Origin: Lachnospiraceae bacterium
GTDB taxonomy: Bacteria; Bacillota; Clostridia; Lachnospirales; Lachnospiraceae
Assembly: GCA_016281335.1 (NCBI GenBank)
Contig: JAEEIK010000103.1
Span: 62,001 to 126,000 of the forward strand
Direction: 5' to 3'
Length of the DNA stretch: 64,000 bases
Below, piece after piece: positions 54,334-64,000 of the stretch; positions within the stretch are counted from its first letter, which is position 1, and every line of letters starts with the position of its first letter. The notes below the pieces were generated by a model, which was given only the letters and a program-made list of their open reading frames with translations, had not been told where the DNA came from and did no database searches. Made by a program: the position numbers and the translations under genes.

Positions 54334-57300
54334 ATGAAGGGTAAAAGATTTTTGGCAGTTCTGATGAGTATCGTGTTGTTCTCGGGAAGTCTGGAAAGCT
54401 TTGTATATGCCGGAGAAGAAATAGCGGCATATGAAGAAGATGTCCTTACGGATGACGATGAAGAAGCTCTTGAAGTGGTGGATGTAAGCGATACAGAAGC
54501 GGAAGAGTTTGTTGAAGCTCCTTCTGAAAATGTTAATGTTTCTGAGGAGAAAGGGAACGCACCGGGGGATGATATAGAATATACGGAAAAGGATTCGGCT
54601 TGGTACGTTGATCATTTCGATTTTGCACCTACTTCAGATAGCGACGGAGGCCCTGCCTACGTGATTAACGACATTCAGGATACATCAGGTTTTCCTGAAT
54701 ATCTTCTGATCCCGGCGAAAATACAAGACGGCGATAATCGTACAGTTATTATTAATGCTGCTTCATTTGCAAATCTGAAAAATACGGATATCAAAGGAAT
54801 CAAAATAGCTGCCGGCGTTGAATTTTCGGACGGTTTAGACGGACTATTTAACAGCTGTTCTACTATTAAGACTATCGATCTGAGTGAAGTTGATACTTCA
54901 AATGTCGTTAATATGACGATGATGTTCAGAGGCTGTGCTTCTCTTAACCGTCTTGATATAAGAGGCCTTGATACTGAAAATGTCACTGACATGTCTAGTA
55001 TGTTCGAGGGCTGTAATTCTCTTAGCGAGATCGATCTTGTAAGTTTTAATACTGCTAAGGTTACTGATATGTCGGGCATGTTCAGAGGCTGCAGCTCCTT
55101 AACAAAACTTGATCTGGGCTCATTTAATACCGAAAAAGTTGATAATATGAAGCAGATGTTTTACGGCTGCAGTGCTCTCGAAGAGCTGAACGTAACGACG
55201 TTTAATACGGAAAAAGCTACAAATATGAGCCAGATGTTCGCTGATTGTGAAAGACTTGCTTCTTTAAATCTGGATAATTTCAATACGCCCAAGGTTGAAA
55301 ACATGTCATATATGTTCAGCAACTGCAGCAGATTGAAATATCTGATAATTCCCGGCTTTACCGGAAGCAGTATACTGACTGATCCGGGCTCATTCAACGG
55401 TATTTCAAATATGTTTGCAGGCTGCAGCGAACTAATGGACCTTGATCTTCATAATTTCTATCTGGCAAGAGCAGATGTAAGCGAGGCATTTAAGAATTGT
55501 AAGTCCTTAAAACGTCTCGATATAAGAGCTTTCAACATGACTGACCAGGAAGGCTATCGAGGCATGTTTAACGGGGCAAGTATAGAAAGACTCGGACTGC
55601 CGGCTGAAGTTCCTGACAGTATGAATGTAGTGATCACCGGACTTAAGCGCTTATATTATGCGGGAAGCAAGGATTTTTATGAAGGCAGGAGAGTGTCTTT
55701 CGGGGCCGAACACATAATATACAATTATAATGACCTCTCTAAACCAATACCTTATCCCGGTGATACAGATATTAATGAACTCAGCTATTCCTTTGCCAAT
55801 TATTTCAAAGAAGATACGGCTGATAATCTCGGTTATGAGGAAGAATGGGCATATCATATCCCTGTTGAAAGATATAAAGAAGTATTCGGCGACAGGGGCG
55901 AGGAGATATTTGATTTCTTTGATGATGAGTGGGGCGGAAGCTGCTACGGCATTTCTTCGAGTTCATCCATGTTTGCAACGGATGATGAGAGCATAAGCAT
56001 GAACGGTTTCTCCAAGGATGCTGTTTTTGTAAGTGATCTGACGTTACCGGCCGAAGTAGACAGGGATCCTTCAGACGATACAAGGGAACAGCTCAGGACT
56101 GACTTGAGAAAGTTCCTTGAAGCTATGCAGATATCCCAGTATGACGAGAGAGTTCAGTTCTGTCTGTCTCTTCCCGCAACACCGCTTGAAATTGTCAGTG
56201 TGCTTGAAGAGAGTAAAAAGCCGGTGATCATAGGTCTCTTCGGACCTGAGGGCGGACACGCTGTGCTCGCATATGCCGCTGAAGAACTTGTCGGAGCAGT
56301 GGGCATGTCCTTGCATATTTATGATCCTAACCATCCGGGACAGGATAAGACTATAAAGATGCTGTCTACTACAGGCAATGCCGCATATCCTGATTCCTGG
56401 GAATATACCCTTGACAGTGCCGGAACAATTAAATGGGGTTCTGACAATAAGGATTGCGCAATAAGCTACGTGCCTTACGATATATATTCAGCGCCCTGGA
56501 AGGACGGTGGAGAGTTCGACTTTGATACCTGGGATCCCACGGCGGGAGAAACTGAAGAATGGACTGATGCGGACGAGGAATTCCTGACACAATACTGGGG
56601 CTGGACGAAAGATGAACAGAATTATCTTAATGCTCATCCGACGGCTACGGATATATCCGATTGGAATGCATCAGATGATGCCGAATTTGCCAAGTATATG
56701 GCAACTTATCCCAAGGCTCCCGACGACATGGATATGCGCTGCAAGATGAGATGCAAGATGCGCTGCAAGATACGTTGTAAGATGAGATGTAAAATGCGCT
56801 GCAAGATGCGTTGTAAGATGAGATGCAAAATGCGTTGTAAAATGCGTTGCAAGGTGCGCTGCAAGCTCATCGGCGGAGGCTACGCCGATATCACCATACT
56901 TGATGATGAGGGCGTAAAGCTGTACGAGTACAAGAACGGAAGCGGAAGCGTTAATGCAGATAAAGAAGCTGAGGGCTATGAAGCTGTCGGACTCGGACTG
57001 CTTTCCGGAAATAAGGCTTTGAAGAAGTCGGATGCGAGATACGTAGGAACCGAGAAGATAAATGCTATTGAATCTACCGGCGCTCTCAATTATTCAATTG
57101 ATGACGGTAAACTCGGCCAGAAAGTTGATACAGAAGCAAAGAAAGTAAAACTTAAGCTGGATGAAGCTAAAAATATTAATGAGCTCACTCTTCCTTTAAA
57201 GAAGGGAGAAAAGGTTAAAGCTTCTTTAAGAAATGAAAAAGCAGATGTTACGGTTGCAGGTAAGGGTACCGGAGCAAAGGCAGGCGCTTATATTTCTGAA

Positions 57301-59118
57301 AGTGATCTGGGCCTGATTGTTGAAAACCTCATAATAGAATCAGTCAGCTCGAACGGAAATGTGCAGGCCGGCGGCAAAGACATAAAAGGTCTTACTTTCA
57401 CTTATGAAACAAGGCTCAGATACAGCGGAGAACTGCTGACTCCGGAGATAAAGGTAGAGGACGGCAACAAAGTTCTTACCGCCTTTACGGATTATGTTTG
57501 TATATACAGCGACAATAAAAAAGCCGGAACGGGAAAAGTTACCGTATACGGTGTCGGCGCATATACCGGTATAAAAGAGCTTACTTTTGAAATATATAAG
57601 GATGAGCCTGTAAACTATGAGGGCATGGAATTTAAGTTTGTTACCGGCATTGACAGCGGCTATGATACCGTTTCCAAGAATAAGTCGGGCAAATATGAGA
57701 TCACTTATACCGGAACAGCTTTAAAGCCCTTAGTAAAGGTAATATACAAGGGTCGTGAACTGTATGAGGGTACGGATTATACAGTCAAATACAAGAATAA
57801 CAGGAATGTCAGTGAAACAGAGGATGCTTCTGCGATAATCACCGGCAAGGGTATGTATAAGTGCAGCTATACGCTTAAGTTCAAGATAGTTAAAAAGAGC
57901 CTGAAGGATGCGGATATAGCCTGCCCTGCATATATGATCGCTGACGGCGATAAGGAGCCGAAGGTGGTATTGGCATACAATGGCACACTGCTGAAGGCCG
58001 GTAAGGATTTTGAAGCCACAGTAAATAAGGATAAAGTGAAGATAAAGGGCATAGGAAATTATACCGGGGAAATAAGTCCCCAGATAAGCAGAGTGGCAGA
58101 CAAGAAGATGCTCAGTGTTAAGCTGAGTCTTGCCAAAGGAATAAAGAAGAGCTACAGCGGAAAAGCTATAGAACTTACTAATGATGAGATCACTGTAAAG
58201 GGCGGAGACGGAAACGTTCTCGTAAAGGATAAGGATTATGTTGTGATCTACAACAATAATATAAACGCCGGAAAGGCCAAAGTAAGCGTTGCAGGCCGGG
58301 GTATGTATACAGGTGTGGCTTCAAAGACCTTTAAGATAAAGGCTGATAAAGAGAGCGCGGTAACTCCTGTGGAAGATAAGACTGTGATCACCTACAGCAT
58401 AGACGGCTCCAGACCTGTGGTCAGTGTTAACTGCGGAACAAGGAAGCTTGTGGCAGGACGTGATTACAAAGTAACCTTCCCTAAGAACAAAAAGGGCGCT
58501 GTTGCTTATTCCCTTAAGTTCATAGGCAACTATAAAGGTCAGAAAGCAATAAAGAACCGTGCATATACCGTAACAGAAGCAGCTTTTGAAGCCGGTGTCA
58601 TCAGCGTGAATGCGGCTGACATGGTAGTCAACAAGAAGAATAAGGTGGTTCCGAAGGTATATGTTGATGAAAACGGTACTCTGCTAAATGCGAAAGATTA
58701 TACGGTAGAGGTTATTGTTGACGGAAAGCCTCTTGAGAAGAATAAAGTAACCATGGTGGAATCAAAGAAAATTAAGGCTATCATAAGAGTAACGGGCCGC
58801 AATAACTACAAGAGCGGCGTGGTAGAAAAGGAAGTAACTATCTATCCTAAAGATACCACAACTACAGATATCTCTGCTGCAAAGATAGCCGTATTCGCTA
58901 ATAAAACTGATCCTGAATCCGTTAAAACTCTGGCCTTCACAGGAGATAAGGTAGTTCCTGGCAAGATAGAAGTAAAACTTAAGAAGAATATGCTTGACGG
59001 CAGCAAGATGAGAGTCAGATGCTATAACAACCTGACAAAAGGAAAGGCTGTGGTAGTAGCTTTCGGCAAGGGCTCGACTTACGCCGGCGCAGCCAAGGGA
59101 ACTTATAAGATCAAATAA
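54334..59118 (+). CDS. Giant secreted LRR / cysteine peptidase-like / (MRCK)11 / Ig-like repeat protein, copy 1
   Basis: 1594 residues. Signal peptide 1-27 (ESFVYA before GEE). Acidic segment ~28-85. BspA-type DUF285 leucine-rich repeats ~165-420 (recurring MFxGCxSLxxLDL...F.T..V..M). Predicted papain-like peptidase ~470-720: C537 in WGGSCYGIS, H642 in PEGGHAVLAY, D664/N666 in YDPNHPG. Acidic Trp-containing segment ~735-800. Residues 801-844 are eleven MRCK-type tetrapeptides (fourth is IRCK, eleventh VRCK). Residues ~1019-1594 are Ig-like beta domains with recurring DYxVxYxNN and G.G.YTG motifs. No sorting signal or anchor is visible at the end. Start at 54334 is set by AAAGGAAGGA and the signal peptide; a TTG at 54313 is rejected. 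Probably a surface or secreted adhesin-peptidase; the peptidase call is by motif only. Confidence 0.88.
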   Translation: MKGKRFLAVLMSIVLFSGSLESFVYAGEEIAAYEEDVLTDDDEEALEVVDVSDTEAEEFVEAPSENVNVSEEKGNAPGDDIEYTEKDSAWYVDHFDFAPTSDSDGGPAYVINDIQDTSGFPEYLLIPAKIQDGDNRTVIINAASFANLKNTDIKGIKIAAGVEFSDGLDGLFNSCSTIKTIDLSEVDTSNVVNMTMMFRGCASLNRLDIRGLDTENVTDMSSMFEGCNSLSEIDLVSFNTAKVTDMSGMFRGCSSLTKLDLGSFNTEKVDNMKQMFYGCSALEELNVTTFNTEKATNMSQMFADCERLASLNLDNFNTPKVENMSYMFSNCSRLKYLIIPGFTGSSILTDPGSFNGISNMFAGCSELMDLDLHNFYLARADVSEAFKNCKSLKRLDIRAFNMTDQEGYRGMFNGASIERLGLPAEVPDSMNVVITGLKRLYYAGSKDFYEGRRVSFGAEHIIYNYNDLSKPIPYPGDTDINELSYSFANYFKEDTADNLGYEEEWAYHIPVERYKEVFGDRGEEIFDFFDDEWGGSCYGISSSSSMFATDDESISMNGFSKDAVFVSDLTLPAEVDRDPSDDTREQLRTDLRKFLEAMQISQYDERVQFCLSLPATPLEIVSVLEESKKPVIIGLFGPEGGHAVLAYAAEELVGAVGMSLHIYDPNHPGQDKTIKMLSTTGNAAYPDSWEYTLDSAGTIKWGSDNKDCAISYVPYDIYSAPWKDGGEFDFDTWDPTAGETEEWTDADEEFLTQYWGWTKDEQNYLNAHPTATDISDWNASDDAEFAKYMATYPKAPDDMDMRCKMRCKMRCKIRCKMRCKMRCKMRCKMRCKMRCKMRCKVRCKLIGGGYADITILDDEGVKLYEYKNGSGSVNADKEAEGYEAVGLGLLSGNKALKKSDARYVGTEKINAIESTGALNYSIDDGKLGQKVDTEAKKVKLKLDEAKNINELTLPLKKGEKVKASLRNEKADVTVAGKGTGAKAGAYISESDLGLIVENLIIESVSSNGNVQAGGKDIKGLTFTYETRLRYSGELLTPEIKVEDGNKVLTAFTDYVCIYSDNKKAGTGKVTVYGVGAYTGIKELTFEIYKDEPVNYEGMEFKFVTGIDSGYDTVSKNKSGKYEITYTGTALKPLVKVIYKGRELYEGTDYTVKYKNNRNVSETEDASAIITGKGMYKCSYTLKFKIVKKSLKDADIACPAYMIADGDKEPKVVLAYNGTLLKAGKDFEATVNKDKVKIKGIGNYTGEISPQISRVADKKMLSVKLSLAKGIKKSYSGKAIELTNDEITVKGGDGNVLVKDKDYVVIYNNNINAGKAKVSVAGRGMYTGVASKTFKIKADKESAVTPVEDKTVITYSIDGSRPVVSVNCGTRKLVAGRDYKVTFPKNKKGAVAYSLKFIGNYKGQKAIKNRAYTVTEAAFEAGVISVNAADMVVNKKNKVVPKVYVDENGTLLNAKDYTVEVIVDGKPLEKNKVTMVESKKIKAIIRVTGRNNYKSGVVEKEVTIYPKDTTTTDISAAKIAVFANKTDPESVKTLAFTGDKVVPGKIEVKLKKNMLDGSKMRVRCYNNLTKGKAVVVAFGKGSTYAGAAKGTYKIK
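56734..56865 (+). repeat. Eleven 12-bp coding repeats (Met-Arg-Cys-Lys), copy 1
   Basis: Eleven consecutive 12-bp units. Arg is CGC 4, AGA 3, CGT 4 times; Cys TGC 7, TGT 4; Lys AAG 8, AAA 3. The Met codon changes to ATA in unit 4 and GTG in unit 11. Being a multiple of 3, copy-number changes would stay in frame. Confidence 0.97.
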
Positions 59119-59160
59119 AAATGAGGGGCACGATATACAGTTAAAGAAAGGAACTATCCG

Positions 59161-62100
59161 ATGAAAGCAAAAAGATTATTGGCAGCGTTTATGTGTACAG
59201 TCATGCTCGCAGGCAGTCTGGACAGCTATGCTTATGCGGGAGAAGAACTTCGCGTATATGACAGTGATAGCATAGGAAGCTTGGAGGATACAGCTCAGGA
59301 AGAGCTTGCACCTGATGATGAGCTTATAAGTGCCAAAGAGGCAGCACCGGAAGATGAAATAAGCATTTCCGAAGAGGCTAAGGAAGATATTGACTGGGTG
59401 CAAGAGAGTGATGAGTGGTATTTTGATAATTTATTGTGCACTAAGGGGACTAACGATAATGGAGAGGATATTGTTACAATAACCGGAGCCGGTCTTATAC
59501 CTGTTGATTATGATAAGAATCTAATAATTCCTGCTACACTGAGTGATAATAATATTGATTATAAGGTATGTATCAAAAGTCAAAGCTTTACGGGTCTCGG
59601 TTCTTCAATTGAATTAAAAGGTATCTGGATTTCCGAAGGTGTTGATGAAGCCGGATCTGACTTATCTGAACTCTTTAAGAATGATTATAACCTTGAAAAT
59701 ATAAAAATAGATTGTAAAGAATTGTTTATACAAGACTTCACAAGAATGTTTGCAGGCTGTGAGAACCTAAAAAATGTTGAGTTTATTAATATTGATACTT
59801 CGACAGCCGGAAGTATGCAGGAAATGTTTAGTGGCTGTACGTCCCTGGAAAGCATAGATCTGACAGGAGCGGTCGCCTATCATCTCTATAATACAAGAAA
59901 AATGTTTTATGGCTGTACTTCATTAAAAGAGATAAAAATATATGATTTGACCTGCGATCAGGTTACTGATTTTTCCGGAATGTTTGAAGGCTGCAGTAAA
60001 CTTGAAAGTATTGATCTTTCATACATGTATCCAAACAATGCAACAGATATGAGTTCAATGTTCAAAGATTGTGCATCCTTAAAAGAACTGGATTTGCAGA
60101 GTTTTAATAATACACAGGAACTTACAAATGTAAACAATATGTTTATGGGATGTACAAGTCTTGCTAAAGTAAATCTTCCAACGCTGATGACTGCTAAAGT
60201 GAAGTATTTCTACAGTATGTTCGAAAACTGCACGTCTCTAAAAGAAGTAACAATAAATCCTGCATATTTTGTATTTTCAGCAGCCGAGGCCGGCGGAAAT
60301 GCTGATGAAGGTGGCCTCAGCCATATGTTTAAAAATTGTGAAAGCCTGGAGAAACTTAAAATGGGGTCCGGCGGAGCTGCAATGCCAATGAAAGGAGCTT
60401 TTGAGGGCTGTACTTCCCTGAAAGTCCTGGATCTCACGAGCATGGACTTTACTCAGGCAACAGAGACGGATGATATGTTCAGCGGAGCAAGTATAGAATA
60501 TCTTGGCATACCTCTGGAATTTGTCAGCAATAAGACTTATGAGATAGACGGGCTTAAACGCGTATATTTCACAGGTGATAAAGCTGCTTTTACTGCTTTG
60601 GGCACGACTTTTTCGGGGAATCCCAAATATATCTATAATTCTGCTTATGGGGTGCTGGATACACCGGGTGAACCCTTAAGGCATGAAGTGAGATTTACTT
60701 TTGAAAACAATTTCAAAAAAGGAGTCTCATCAAATCTCGGATATGAAGAAAGCTGGAATTATCATATTCCTCTTGAAAGATACAGGGAAGTATTCGGCGA
60801 CAGGGCCGAAAATATGTTTGAAATATTTGATGACGAATGGGGCGGCAGCTGTTACGGTATGTCTGCAGCAGGCGCCATGCTCTATATCTACGGAAGCGGA
60901 CTGGATACAGAGGATTACAGGGCTGATGCCGTATTTGCGGAAGATCTTATCCTTACGGCTGAGGTGGACAGAGATACCTCTGATGATAAAAGAGAGGATA
61001 TAAACAGCGATCTGAGAAAACTTCTGGAAGCGCTGCAGATATCCCAGTATGATGAGCGTGTACAGTTCTGCCTTGGCTGTGATGCACTGCCTATGGAAAT
61101 CATCAATGAGCTTGAAAGCAGCGGTAAGCCTGTGATAATCGGTATGTTCGGTCCCGAAGGAGGACATGCGGTACTCGCTTACGGAGTTGAGGATGATGCT
61201 TCTTCCCACGCAAAGAGAATACTGATCTATGATCCTAATTATCCCGATGAAGACCGTGCAATTGTCGCCGACTCATCCACTAATTCCGATATTTACGATA
61301 CATGGGAATATGTGATAAGAGAAAGCAAAGGAGTAGCAGGCTTTGACAGAATAGTATGGGGTAGTGCCTACAATGATTGTTATATCAGCTACGTTCCCTA
61401 TGATATATATTCAGTTCCTCTGTCAGACGGAACCACCTTCGATCCTGAAACCTGGGATCCGTTTGCAGGCTCACCGGACAGCTGGAGTACTGCGGATGAG
61501 TGGTTTTATAAGAAGTTTATGAGTGAAGGCTGGACCGCAGATGAAGGCAGATATGAGGCAAAATATCGTGATAAGACCTGGACTGCTGATGACTGGACTG
61601 AAGCAGATATGGACTTCATGCAGAATCATTATGAATGGACAGCTGAAGAAGAAGAATGGATGGCAGCCAATCCCGGTTGGAATAATGCCTGGACTGCCGA
61701 GGATGAAACTGCATTTGCGGAATACTATGCAAATTACAGTAATCCCGCGATCGCTGATATGCGCTGTAAGATGAGATGCAAGATGCGCTGCAAGATGCGC
61801 TGTAAGATGCGTTGCAAGATGAGATGCAAGATGCGCTGTAAGATGAGATGTAAGATGAGATGCAAGATGCGTTGTAAGATGCGCTGCAAAATGATGGCGA
61901 TAGAAAACAATGCATATACCGTACTTGATGAATCCGGAAGCAAACTGATCGAATCAGTAAACGGCAATGCTGTTATTCCCGAAGATAAAGAGGAGACTGT
62001 ATTCCTTGATTCCAACATGGGATTCAGACTTGACCAGACCGAAAAGAAAGCTACTAAAGGCTTTTACAGCCCGGTCGGAACGAAAACAGTTTCTTCCAAT

Positions 62101-64000
62101 GAGGGTCTTAAGTACACGGCTGTAGACGGTCTGTTCATGCAGAAAGTGATCACTGACGGTAAAAAGGCCGTAAGTACGCTTGACGAAAAGACAAAGATCA
62201 ATGAAGTAGAGCTGCCTCTTAAGGATGATGAAACTGTTGAAATAAGATTCAAAGATCTGGCTGATGATGTGACTATAAAAGGTAAAGGAACAGCAGCGGA
62301 TGCCTTTGCGGCAAAGGGTGAGAAAGGCATTAATATCTCCAATATTGAGATCGTATCGGTAAGCGCCAACGGTAACGAACAGCCACAGGGTAAGGATATC
62401 TCCAAGCTTACGATGGAGATCGAGGAAAAGGTGGTAAAAGGTACCGATGCCGTAACTCCTGCGGTGATCATCAAAGATGGTGACTATGTACTTGATCCTT
62501 TCAATGATTATGTATGTGTATACAGCGATAATCTGGAACTCGGCACAGGCCACGTTGATGCATACGGTATAGGTGATTATACCGGTATTCTCAGCGGAAG
62601 CTTTGAAATAGTTGAAAAGCTAGAAGAAGAGGAAGAAAAAAAGGAGAATAACGATCAGGAAGAAGAAAAGGAACCGGAAGAACAAGAGCAGAAAGACACT
62701 AAGGATAATACCGATAACACAATTTCGGCCGATATCATAAAGTATCCAGTAAATACTAACGGTATGAATTTCTACTTTGTTACCGGCGAAGATACGGCTT
62801 ATGATATTGTATCCGAGAATAAAGCCGGAAAGTATGAGATCACTTATACCGGAACCGCGCTTAAGCCTCTTGTAAAGGTCTTCTATAAAGGTCGTGAACT
62901 GTACGAGGGCGCAGATTACATTGTTAAATACAAGAACAATAAGAATGTTAGCGAAACGGCCGATGCAAGCGCAGTGATAAACGGTAAAGGAACATACAAG
63001 TTCAGCTATACACTAAACTTTAGGATAGAAAAAAAGAGTCTTAAAGACAGCGATATAGCCTGTCCTGCATATGTGATAGCAGACGGTGATAAGGATCCGA
63101 AGATCGTGATCGCTTATAACGGAAAGCTCTTAAAAGAAGGGAAAGATTTTAATGCAAATCTTAATAAAGATAAAGTCAAGATAAATGGTATCGGCAATTT
63201 TTGCGGGGATATCACACTGCCGGTAAGCAGGGTGGCAGATAAGAAGAAACAAAGTGTGAAGCTGACACTCAGTAAGGGTATCAAAAAGAACTATAATGGC
63301 AAGGCTGTCGAACTTGCAGCTGATGAGTTCGCGGTTAAGGACGGAAACGGCACACAGCTTACAAAAGATAAGGATTTCCGTGTGTATTACAGTAATAATG
63401 TAAATGCCGGAAAAGCCGTGATAACCGTGGCAGGTATCGGTATGTATACCGGAGTCGTAAGCAAGAGCTTTAAGATAAAAGCCGATAAAGACAGTACGGT
63501 CGCAGTCAAAGGCGATACAGTTGTTACATACAGCATAGACGGATCCAGACCTTCTGTCAGCATTAACTGCGGCGAAAAAACGCTGGTAGCCGGACGTGAC
63601 TATAAACTCAGTTTCCCGAAGAATAAGAAAGGCGAAGCAGCATATTCTGTCAAATTTGCAGGCAACTATGCAGGACGCAAGGTTCTCAAAGGACAGAAAT
63701 ACACTGTTAAGGAAGCGGCTTTTACCGAAGGGATTGTAAGTGTCAATGCAGCTGACATGATAGTAAGCAAGAAAGACAAAGTAACGCCGATAGTTTTCGT
63801 GGATGAAAAAGGAACATTGCTGAATGCAAAAGACTACAGCGTAGAGATACTTGTAGATGGAAAAGTATTGGAGAAAAATAAGATCACGATGGTTAAGTCC
63901 CAGACGCTTAAAGCCACGATAAGGGTAACAGGCATGAATAATTACAGTAACGGAGTGATCGAGAAGCAAGTTACTATCTATCCGAAGGATACCAAGACAG
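59161..64000 (+). CDS. Giant secreted LRR / cysteine peptidase-like / (MRCK)11 / Ig-like repeat protein, copy 2 (3' truncated by window)
   Basis: At least 1613 residues; open from the ATG at 59161 to the window end. It is a tandem paralog of the preceding gene, 42 bp downstream, with AAAGGAAC as ribosome site and no terminator between, so probably co-transcribed. Signal peptide 1-26 (SYAYA before GEE). Divergent DUF285 repeats ~195-450. Peptidase-like core with C564 (WGGSCYGMS), H669 (PEGGHAVLAYG) and D691 (IYDPNYP). A Trp-rich acidic region ~770-865 has repeated WTADE/WTAEE units. Residues 867-910 are eleven perfect MRCK units. Then come Ig-like domains with an acidic linker (~1155-1190, rich in E, K, N) that copy 1 lacks. 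The missing 3' end prevents any statement on anchoring. Confidence 0.88.
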   Translation, partial: MKAKRLLAAFMCTVMLAGSLDSYAYAGEELRVYDSDSIGSLEDTAQEELAPDDELISAKEAAPEDEISISEEAKEDIDWVQESDEWYFDNLLCTKGTNDNGEDIVTITGAGLIPVDYDKNLIIPATLSDNNIDYKVCIKSQSFTGLGSSIELKGIWISEGVDEAGSDLSELFKNDYNLENIKIDCKELFIQDFTRMFAGCENLKNVEFINIDTSTAGSMQEMFSGCTSLESIDLTGAVAYHLYNTRKMFYGCTSLKEIKIYDLTCDQVTDFSGMFEGCSKLESIDLSYMYPNNATDMSSMFKDCASLKELDLQSFNNTQELTNVNNMFMGCTSLAKVNLPTLMTAKVKYFYSMFENCTSLKEVTINPAYFVFSAAEAGGNADEGGLSHMFKNCESLEKLKMGSGGAAMPMKGAFEGCTSLKVLDLTSMDFTQATETDDMFSGASIEYLGIPLEFVSNKTYEIDGLKRVYFTGDKAAFTALGTTFSGNPKYIYNSAYGVLDTPGEPLRHEVRFTFENNFKKGVSSNLGYEESWNYHIPLERYREVFGDRAENMFEIFDDEWGGSCYGMSAAGAMLYIYGSGLDTEDYRADAVFAEDLILTAEVDRDTSDDKREDINSDLRKLLEALQISQYDERVQFCLGCDALPMEIINELESSGKPVIIGMFGPEGGHAVLAYGVEDDASSHAKRILIYDPNYPDEDRAIVADSSTNSDIYDTWEYVIRESKGVAGFDRIVWGSAYNDCYISYVPYDIYSVPLSDGTTFDPETWDPFAGSPDSWSTADEWFYKKFMSEGWTADEGRYEAKYRDKTWTADDWTEADMDFMQNHYEWTAEEEEWMAANPGWNNAWTAEDETAFAEYYANYSNPAIADMRCKMRCKMRCKMRCKMRCKMRCKMRCKMRCKMRCKMRCKMRCKMMAIENNAYTVLDESGSKLIESVNGNAVIPEDKEETVFLDSNMGFRLDQTEKKATKGFYSPVGTKTVSSNEGLKYTAVDGLFMQKVITDGKKAVSTLDEKTKINEVELPLKDDETVEIRFKDLADDVTIKGKGTAADAFAAKGEKGINISNIEIVSVSANGNEQPQGKDISKLTMEIEEKVVKGTDAVTPAVIIKDGDYVLDPFNDYVCVYSDNLELGTGHVDAYGIGDYTGILSGSFEIVEKLEEEEEKKENNDQEEEKEPEEQEQKDTKDNTDNTISADIIKYPVNTNGMNFYFVTGEDTAYDIVSENKAGKYEITYTGTALKPLVKVFYKGRELYEGADYIVKYKNNKNVSETADASAVINGKGTYKFSYTLNFRIEKKSLKDSDIACPAYVIADGDKDPKIVIAYNGKLLKEGKDFNANLNKDKVKINGIGNFCGDITLPVSRVADKKKQSVKLTLSKGIKKNYNGKAVELAADEFAVKDGNGTQLTKDKDFRVYYSNNVNAGKAVITVAGIGMYTGVVSKSFKIKADKDSTVAVKGDTVVTYSIDGSRPSVSINCGEKTLVAGRDYKLSFPKNKKGEAAYSVKFAGNYAGRKVLKGQKYTVKEAAFTEGIVSVNAADMIVSKKDKVTPIVFVDEKGTLLNAKDYSVEILVDGKVLEKNKITMVKSQTLKATIRVTGMNNYSNGVIEKQVTIYPKDTKT
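61759..61890 (+). repeat. Eleven 12-bp coding repeats (Met-Arg-Cys-Lys), copy 2
   Basis: Eleven perfect MRCK units. Arg is CGC 5, AGA 4, CGT 2 times; Cys TGC 6, TGT 5; Lys AAG 10, AAA 1. The order of codon variants differs from copy 1 although the encoded peptide and the copy number are the same. Confidence 0.97.

Follow-up and report, generated by a model that had tools for sequence, protein, structure and literature searches.

Analysis of a 64,000-nucleotide stretch of a Lachnospiraceae genome (the window) and of related genomes revealed an uncharacterised, lineage-restricted family of secreted proteins in which a Cys-His-Asp core is followed by an acidic, Trp-rich segment and then by a cationic tract of short units. 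What stays constant in these tracts is that uncharged residues alternate with cationic ones, with Cys, or in one case Met, interspersed, and the tract amino acids were shown to be under strong purifying selection. We tentatively propose that the tract is a self-masked cationic β-strand that would bind polyanions or self-assemble on the cell surface, as a clasp or adhesive.

Architecture and distribution of the tract proteins

The window contains two adjacent genes, designated copies a and b (own a and own b among the relatives), with the following features.

54334..59118, + strand: copy a, a secreted protein of 1594 aa (open reading frame, translation and homologues)
54334..54414, + strand: signal peptide of copy a, with its boundary set by eye (basic start, hydrophobic stretch, ...YAG)
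54835..55179, + strand: best stretch of the DUF285/LRR repeats of copy a (PF03382, E 7.7e-43; TIGR02167 PARCEL repeat)
55774..56499, + strand: Cys-His-Asp core of copy a, with GGSCYG, GGHAVLAY and YDPN (homologues; invariant C57, H162, D184 and N186)
56500..56733, + strand: acidic segment of copy a, rich in Trp, with conserved D and W columns and a net charge of −18
56734..56865, + strand: alternating cationic tract of copy a, 11 xRCK units, net charge +22, 11 Cys
56866..59115, + strand: post-tract β domain and Ig-like modules of copy a ("Ig-like" by eye)
59161..64000, + strand: copy b, a protein of 1697 aa whose open reading frame ends beyond the window, at position 64254
60685..61419, + strand: Cys-His-Asp core of copy b, sharing 58% identity with that of copy a
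61420..61758, + strand: acidic segment of copy b, with 10 Trp and a net charge of −21
61759..61890, + strand: tract of copy b, (MRCK)11, net charge +22

Both open reading frames and all of the elements that an earlier note had assigned to two adjacent paralogs were present, with the signal peptides and Ig-like modules recognised by eye. The eleven MRCK tetrapeptides that it gave to each copy are exact in copy b, whereas the tract of copy a consists of nine MRCK units plus IRCK (unit 4) and VRCK (unit 11). The look beyond position 64000 that it recommended completed copy b, which ends 254 bases beyond the window (contig position C127:126254). A third paralog (own c) is encoded on another contig of the same genome (G000:C53); it contains the acidic segment and tract twice, its first tract being (MRCK)4 and its second, which follows another acidic segment, (MRCK)11. 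The tracts of the window copies are in frame within long open reading frames that have homologues. Their N-terminal repeats match PF03382 (145.5 and 84.3 bits against a cut-off of 25), PF13306 and TIGR02167 (160.4 and 60.3 bits against a cut-off of 30), and a Pfam search of the region of copy a that holds the Ig-like modules (56866..59115) gave no match. An LPxTG motif was found in none of the 11 tract proteins checked (all except G429b; copy b was checked in its window part, and its last 84 residues have none). Elsewhere in the window, a short tandem repeat (periods of 39 and 18 bases) occupies positions 765-851.

Relatives were searched for with the core, not the tract, in overlapping samples that each included the window's own genome, except for that of a second genus, g52. 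The core was present in 6 of 35 genomes of the genus (E 0.001 or better), 16 of 397 genomes of the family sample, 3 of the 4 genomes of g52, 4 of 392 genomes of the order sample (E 1e-12) and 7 of 344 relatives (E 1e-30), and no core relative was found in the viral and plasmid collections. Both acidic segment and tract were found in twelve core proteins from eight genomes (five of the window's genus and three of g52): own a, b and c; G022; G018 a and b; G023; G014; G085; G430; G429a; and G429b. In all twelve close homologues of the core, a close homologue being one that scored above 230 bits with the first profile or was a member of it, the pair occupies the same place; the four tract proteins outside that profile scored 232-280 bits, whereas no tract-less core outside it exceeded 134 bits. 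The 23 other core loci were scanned for at least seven exact alternating pairs, a scan that would miss an irregular tract like that of G023, and none was found in the core frame; at 20 of these loci (all but L085-L087) the sequence following the core was inspected by eye as well. Since the tract occurs in the twelve and was found at none of these other loci, and since in several distant tract-less homologues the core runs directly into a segment resembling the post-tract segment of the twelve, the acidic segment and tract are a module seen in one subfamily. The twelve grouped together in a tree of 16 cores (90/88 support, below the starred level). In G085 and G429a the LRRs are absent and the signal peptide leads straight to the core; the LRRs are dispensable.

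Diverse core proteins without a tract, of the form GxC[YFM]G ... H[AST] ..., were seen at L055, L058, L062-L068, L077-L080 and L085. Some are tandem pairs and some have LRR- or Ig-like modules by eye; a Pfam search of the cores at L055 and L058 gave no match.

Alternation, charge and selection in the tract

A pattern of three consecutive MRCK units gave 25 overlapping matches in the window's own genome versus 0 for a reversed-pattern control, an excess over chance. In the genome search for MRCK tracts that had been suggested, the literal pattern in coding form was confined to that genome among the 35 of the genus, whereas tracts of other units lie beside the core in relatives: (VRCK)9 in G022, (SRCK)9 in each of G018 a and b, (LRCR)8 in G085, (VKCR)8 in G430, (LRCK)8 in G429a, (FRMR)12 with Met instead of Cys in G429b, (GRCRLR)5 with period 6 in G014 and an irregular W-R-C-K form, WRCKSYCRWRCKGRLNWRCKGRLNWRCK, in G023. 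The tracts are 28-48 residues long and mostly follow (X-[RK]-[C or M]-[RK])n. An uncharged residue alternates exactly with Arg or Lys in 11 of the 12, and the remaining tract, that of G023, is cationic at 11 of its 14 "even" positions.

Two single MRCK-pattern matches, at L021 (genome contigs) and L088 (viral contigs), were rejected, their frames overlapping a longer repeat-coding open reading frame. Eight weak tract-like matches among 299 family genomes (one in the window's own genome and seven in six others) were also rejected as shorter than the overlapping frame or broken by stops; one of the eight, at L154, was dropped only narrowly (399 versus 424 residues in the overlapping frame). At L088:9759-10154 (MQDE repeats) and L021:6370-7998 (HFAP repeats) an off-frame or antisense reading imitates an xRCK tract, a warning for pattern searches.

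The earlier note had described the tract as a cationic rod with a Cys at every fourth residue. Although Cys is present in 11 of the 12 tracts, its spacing is 4, 6 or irregular, and the idea that this is the essence of the tract is weakened by (FRMR)12, which has 0 Cys, by GRCRLR and by the irregular G023 tract; FRMR and GRCRLR keep the alternation but not the Cys spacing, and the feature in common is the alternation with Arg/Lys. The main rival to our proposal is built on sulphur chemistry, with the tract as a thiol rod that would form disulfide networks or bind soft metals, Arg/Lys beside Cys tuning its reactivity. In its favour, the third position of regular units is always Cys or Met (Cys in nine and Met in one of the ten proteins with regular period-4 tracts) and hardly varies, whereas the first does (M, V, S, L, W, G or F); it fits poorly with the Cys-free (FRMR)12 and with Cys spacings that change while charge alternation is kept, and we consider it rather unlikely. 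Metal or disulfide roles are possible for the 11 proteins that have Cys, whereas Cys in all members, as in a metallothionein-like family, was not found. A transglutaminase-type use of the tract Lys was rejected, Lys being absent from the LRCR and FRMR tracts.

The acidic segment and tract are of opposite net charge in all twelve proteins, ranging from −17 to −36 for the acidic segments (the two segments of the third paralog summed) and from +11 to +30 for the tracts, with a ratio of charge sizes between 0.8 (−18/+22) and 1.6 (−18/+11). Matching of the charge sizes is suggestive only: with n=12, the Pearson correlation was 0.77 (p 0.004), resting on own c and G429b, and the Spearman correlation was 0.43 (p 0.16). 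A cationic stretch adjoining an anionic segment, a trait of antimicrobial precursors, was present in 12 of 12, and the tract might be a pro-antimicrobial, a cationic peptide that the core or a different peptidase would cut free from its anionic prosegment and that would act on competitor membranes, in the manner of α-defensin precursors or of the synthetic (XRXK)n peptides. Consistent with this, the anionic segment lies directly before the cationic, usually Cys-bearing tract, and anionic prosegments have been suggested to keep α-defensins inactive (PMC3308943). However, the tract is internal, with ~240-790 more residues after it; no immunity gene was recognised by eye nearby; and aggregation deprives long KL peptides of alternating design of their antibacterial activity (PMC8757834). 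Moreover, two tracts have Ser at X and one has Gly, so that the face is weakly hydrophobic; these residues speak against an exclusively membrane-lytic function and in favour of polyanion binding or assembly. We regard the pro-antimicrobial as improbable.

Comparison of units within the ten regular arrays (taking the 11-unit array of own c and excluding G014 and G023) revealed that between 0.8 and 2.0 of the 4 codons differ per pair of units, while the unit amino acids differ only in own a, with two changed units among all ten arrays. Values of pN/pS were 0 to 0.27, the higher ones in G018 arising from Ser codon switches that on paper pass through other residues. Repeat arrays easily expand, and the unit register between arrays was not significant in six of seven comparisons (the exception being G018a/b, p 0.017), leaving unit order not detectably kept between most paralogs, as would fit a functionless low-complexity expansion. 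The earlier note had reasoned that homologues mostly lacking the tract would point to such a local expansion; instead, the tract is in the same place in all twelve close homologues, from two genera, with different units, and its amino acids are near-fixed while its codons are heavily diversified. These results support the view that the tract is selected and has undergone no recent local expansion, and we disfavour the functionless repeat as extremely improbable. Own b and G022 are likely orthologues: they pair in the core tree (94/92, not starred) and have a common synteny (dacA-like, tract gene, gpsA-like; names by eye), so M and V would differ in all units between likely orthologues. Either re-expansion of a replaced unit or change of one unit at a time might account for this; the codon register of these two arrays was not significant (p 0.59).

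The core and its gene neighbourhood

Residues C57, H162, D184 and N186 are invariant in both alignments of the core (10-row A1 and 12-row A2), and their order and local sequence resemble those of papain-like peptidases of the C39 kind; we infer that these four residues are catalytic. A model of the core alone (pLDDT 46.9, 2-row alignment of window sequences) showed mostly β-strands at residues 131-230 (block pLDDT 58-77), and a model of the core plus tract had a pLDDT of 34 (2-row alignment). Foldseek with this weak core model gave no match at E 0.001 or better (best E 0.099); the top row, itself not significant, was TDE0362, and 28 of the best 50 of 348 rows were what we take to be clan-CA-like enzymes, many of them redundant and representing about eight distinct proteins. 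The profile search called for by the earlier note placed the core in no Pfam family (four cores, E up to 10), and NCBIfam gave no match for the core region of the two window proteins. Comparison by hhalign with C39_2 (probability 4.2, 12 of 16 fetched loci, aligned columns including the His) and C1 (probability 0.7, 11 of 16 fetched loci, aligned columns including the Cys motif) was not significant, in a test that the controls mark as weak (C39-C1 18.6, core-HD 0.4). The best match of a PDB sequence search, Glr1262 (E 0.00016), was rejected as chance, being made of three stretches, none better than 4.2 alone, that do not include the catalytic Cys. Thus the putative papain-like peptidase of the earlier note agrees with the motif order, the invariant residues and the Foldseek neighbours but lacks a significant profile or fold match, and we regard the core as likely papain-like. 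A core without a Pfam or NCBIfam match at the thresholds used, and occurring also in other genera, deserves its own family.

At 6 of 10 loci, with each tandem pair taken as one locus, an HD-GYP-signature gene is found close to the tract gene, adjoining it in G014, G023, G085, G430 and G429a and one gene further away in G018; none was seen beside the tract gene at own C127 (window open reading frames from 48000 on), own C53, G022 or G429b. This neighbour has 636-665 residues, matched PF01966 above the cut-off in all four copies tested and carries HD...HH...GYP, the signature of the c-di-GMP phosphodiesterase type, in all 11 copies checked. In G085, G430 and G429a it lies upstream on the same strand, with 43, 12 and 48 bases, respectively, from its last sense codon to the first ATG of the tract frame, making co-transcription plausible; in G014, G023 and G018 the two genes are convergent. 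HD-GYP homologues above 790 bits were found in 5 of 5 tract-bearing versus 0 of 30 other genomes of the genus (next best 542.5 bits), a pattern that is not independent evidence if the tract-bearing species are one clade, and the co-occurrence could come from shared ancestry. Including weaker relatives (E 1e-20), 14 of the 35 genomes have such a gene. No c-di-GMP riboswitch or any other Rfam element was found at the gathering threshold.

The N-terminal ~400 residues of this HD-GYP-signature family (L096:7569-9488 and relatives) have no convincing family match, and in some tract-less species the family occurs in several tandem copies, with open frames of ~1280-1780 aa. A frame a few bases after an HD-GYP gene of G022 (L147:4372-4821, contig G022:C24) has a signal-like start and an acidic N terminus and is truncated where the contig ends; it may encode a second tract protein in that genome.

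An Opp-like (oligopeptide-permease) operon was also found near the tract genes of G018, G085, G430 and G429a (names by eye). The tract might accordingly be a polyprotein precursor, its tandem short peptides cut at basic residues and imported by the permease as a signal or nutrient, which would also suit units that are identical within a protein and change between likely orthologues of the same synteny (MRCK in own b, VRCK in G022). However, internal Arg would be cut too, the G023 tract is irregular, no Opp-like gene was recognised next to the tract genes of the window, G022, G014 or G023, and both the window's own genome and G022 have an Opp-like operon beside an HD-GYP gene where the retrieved stretch contains no tract gene, suggesting that the linkage to the tract may be history. 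We find a polyprotein very improbable.

A possible cationic clasp and its likeness to known systems

The alternation rule, the acidic partner in cis and the Ser or Gly at X together favour the clasp or adhesive, of which we infer the masking, unmasking, target and localisation. In this model the tract would be an amphipathic extended or β polycation, with its cations on one face and X and the sulphur residues on the other. In the secreted protein the oppositely charged acidic segment would pair with this polycation and mask it. Unmasking would occur when a stronger polyanion (wall polymer, acidic polysaccharide or extracellular DNA) swaps in, or when the core or another peptidase cuts, and the freed tract could then bind that polyanion, stack into β-sheet assemblies or do both. 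A protein in which no LPXTG anchor was seen could thereby be held on the surface or in the matrix via its tract, with Cys providing optional cross-links, and the HD-GYP neighbourhood hints at an attachment or biofilm programme. Counting against the clasp are the Cys in 11 of 12 tracts, which exceeds the need of a pure polycation, the four loci at which no HD-GYP gene was seen and the lack of an Rfam element. The sole model of the tract was a helix with a block pLDDT of 23-39 (2-sequence alignment), values that support neither helix nor strand.

A bolder form of the proposal, which we think unlikely, is a new natural material element: a genetically encoded, self-masked (X-cation-sulphur-cation)n strand that is uniform within each protein but whose X differs en bloc between orthologues, like stacking with like, and which would serve as a strain-specific adhesive or matrix former linked to a c-di-GMP programme, with its own papain-like release switch.

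Papain-like (clan CA) peptidases, including TDE0362/T-Mac of Treponema denticola, streptopain and the C39 and C1 families, have a like order of Cys, His and Asp/Asn, which the core carries in GxCxG, GHAVLAY and YDPN. The core differs in its lack of a Pfam or NCBIfam match and of a Foldseek match at E 0.001 or better; in addition, a Gln usually precedes the catalytic Cys of these enzymes and is not conserved in the core. The N-terminal repeats of the window copies (PF03382, PF13306, TIGR02167) are like those of BspA/DUF285/PARCEL leucine-rich surface proteins, but G085 and G429a lack them, and the family matches spare the core, acidic segment and tract. Mammalian protamines are Arg- and Cys-containing polycations that bind DNA and are locked by disulfides, a likeness that may serve as a lead; they are nuclear and have no tandem units, in contrast to the secreted tract proteins with their repeated units.

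None of the papers searched contains MRCKMRCK, SRCKSRCK, VRCKVRCK, LRCKLRCK or FRMRFRMR, LRCRLRCR occurred once, in an electronics paper, and searches for such tracts by topic, judged from titles and the starts of abstracts of the papers listed, found nothing. α-Defensin precursors likewise place an anionic segment before a cationic, Cys-bearing one (PMC3308943), but the tract is internal and repetitive, and the likeness noted is one of layout. PMC8757834 describes β-strand formation by synthetic peptides of alternating design ([KL]n, [IRIK]n) and, for long KL peptides, pre-aggregation into amyloid-like fibrils that is enhanced by phosphate. The [XZ]n and [IRIK]n designs considered here have the alternation rule in common with the tracts, (X1 cation X2 cation)n, but are short (~4-20 residues), whereas the tracts are natural, 28-48 residues long, internal, mostly Cys-bearing and paired with an acidic segment. 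If our reading is true, bacteria evolved the alternating β-sheet design of peptide chemists and added a built-in acidic mask. MRCK, VRCK, SRCK, LRCR, LRCK, VKCR, FRMR and GRCRLR form a natural series for comparing the role of each position.
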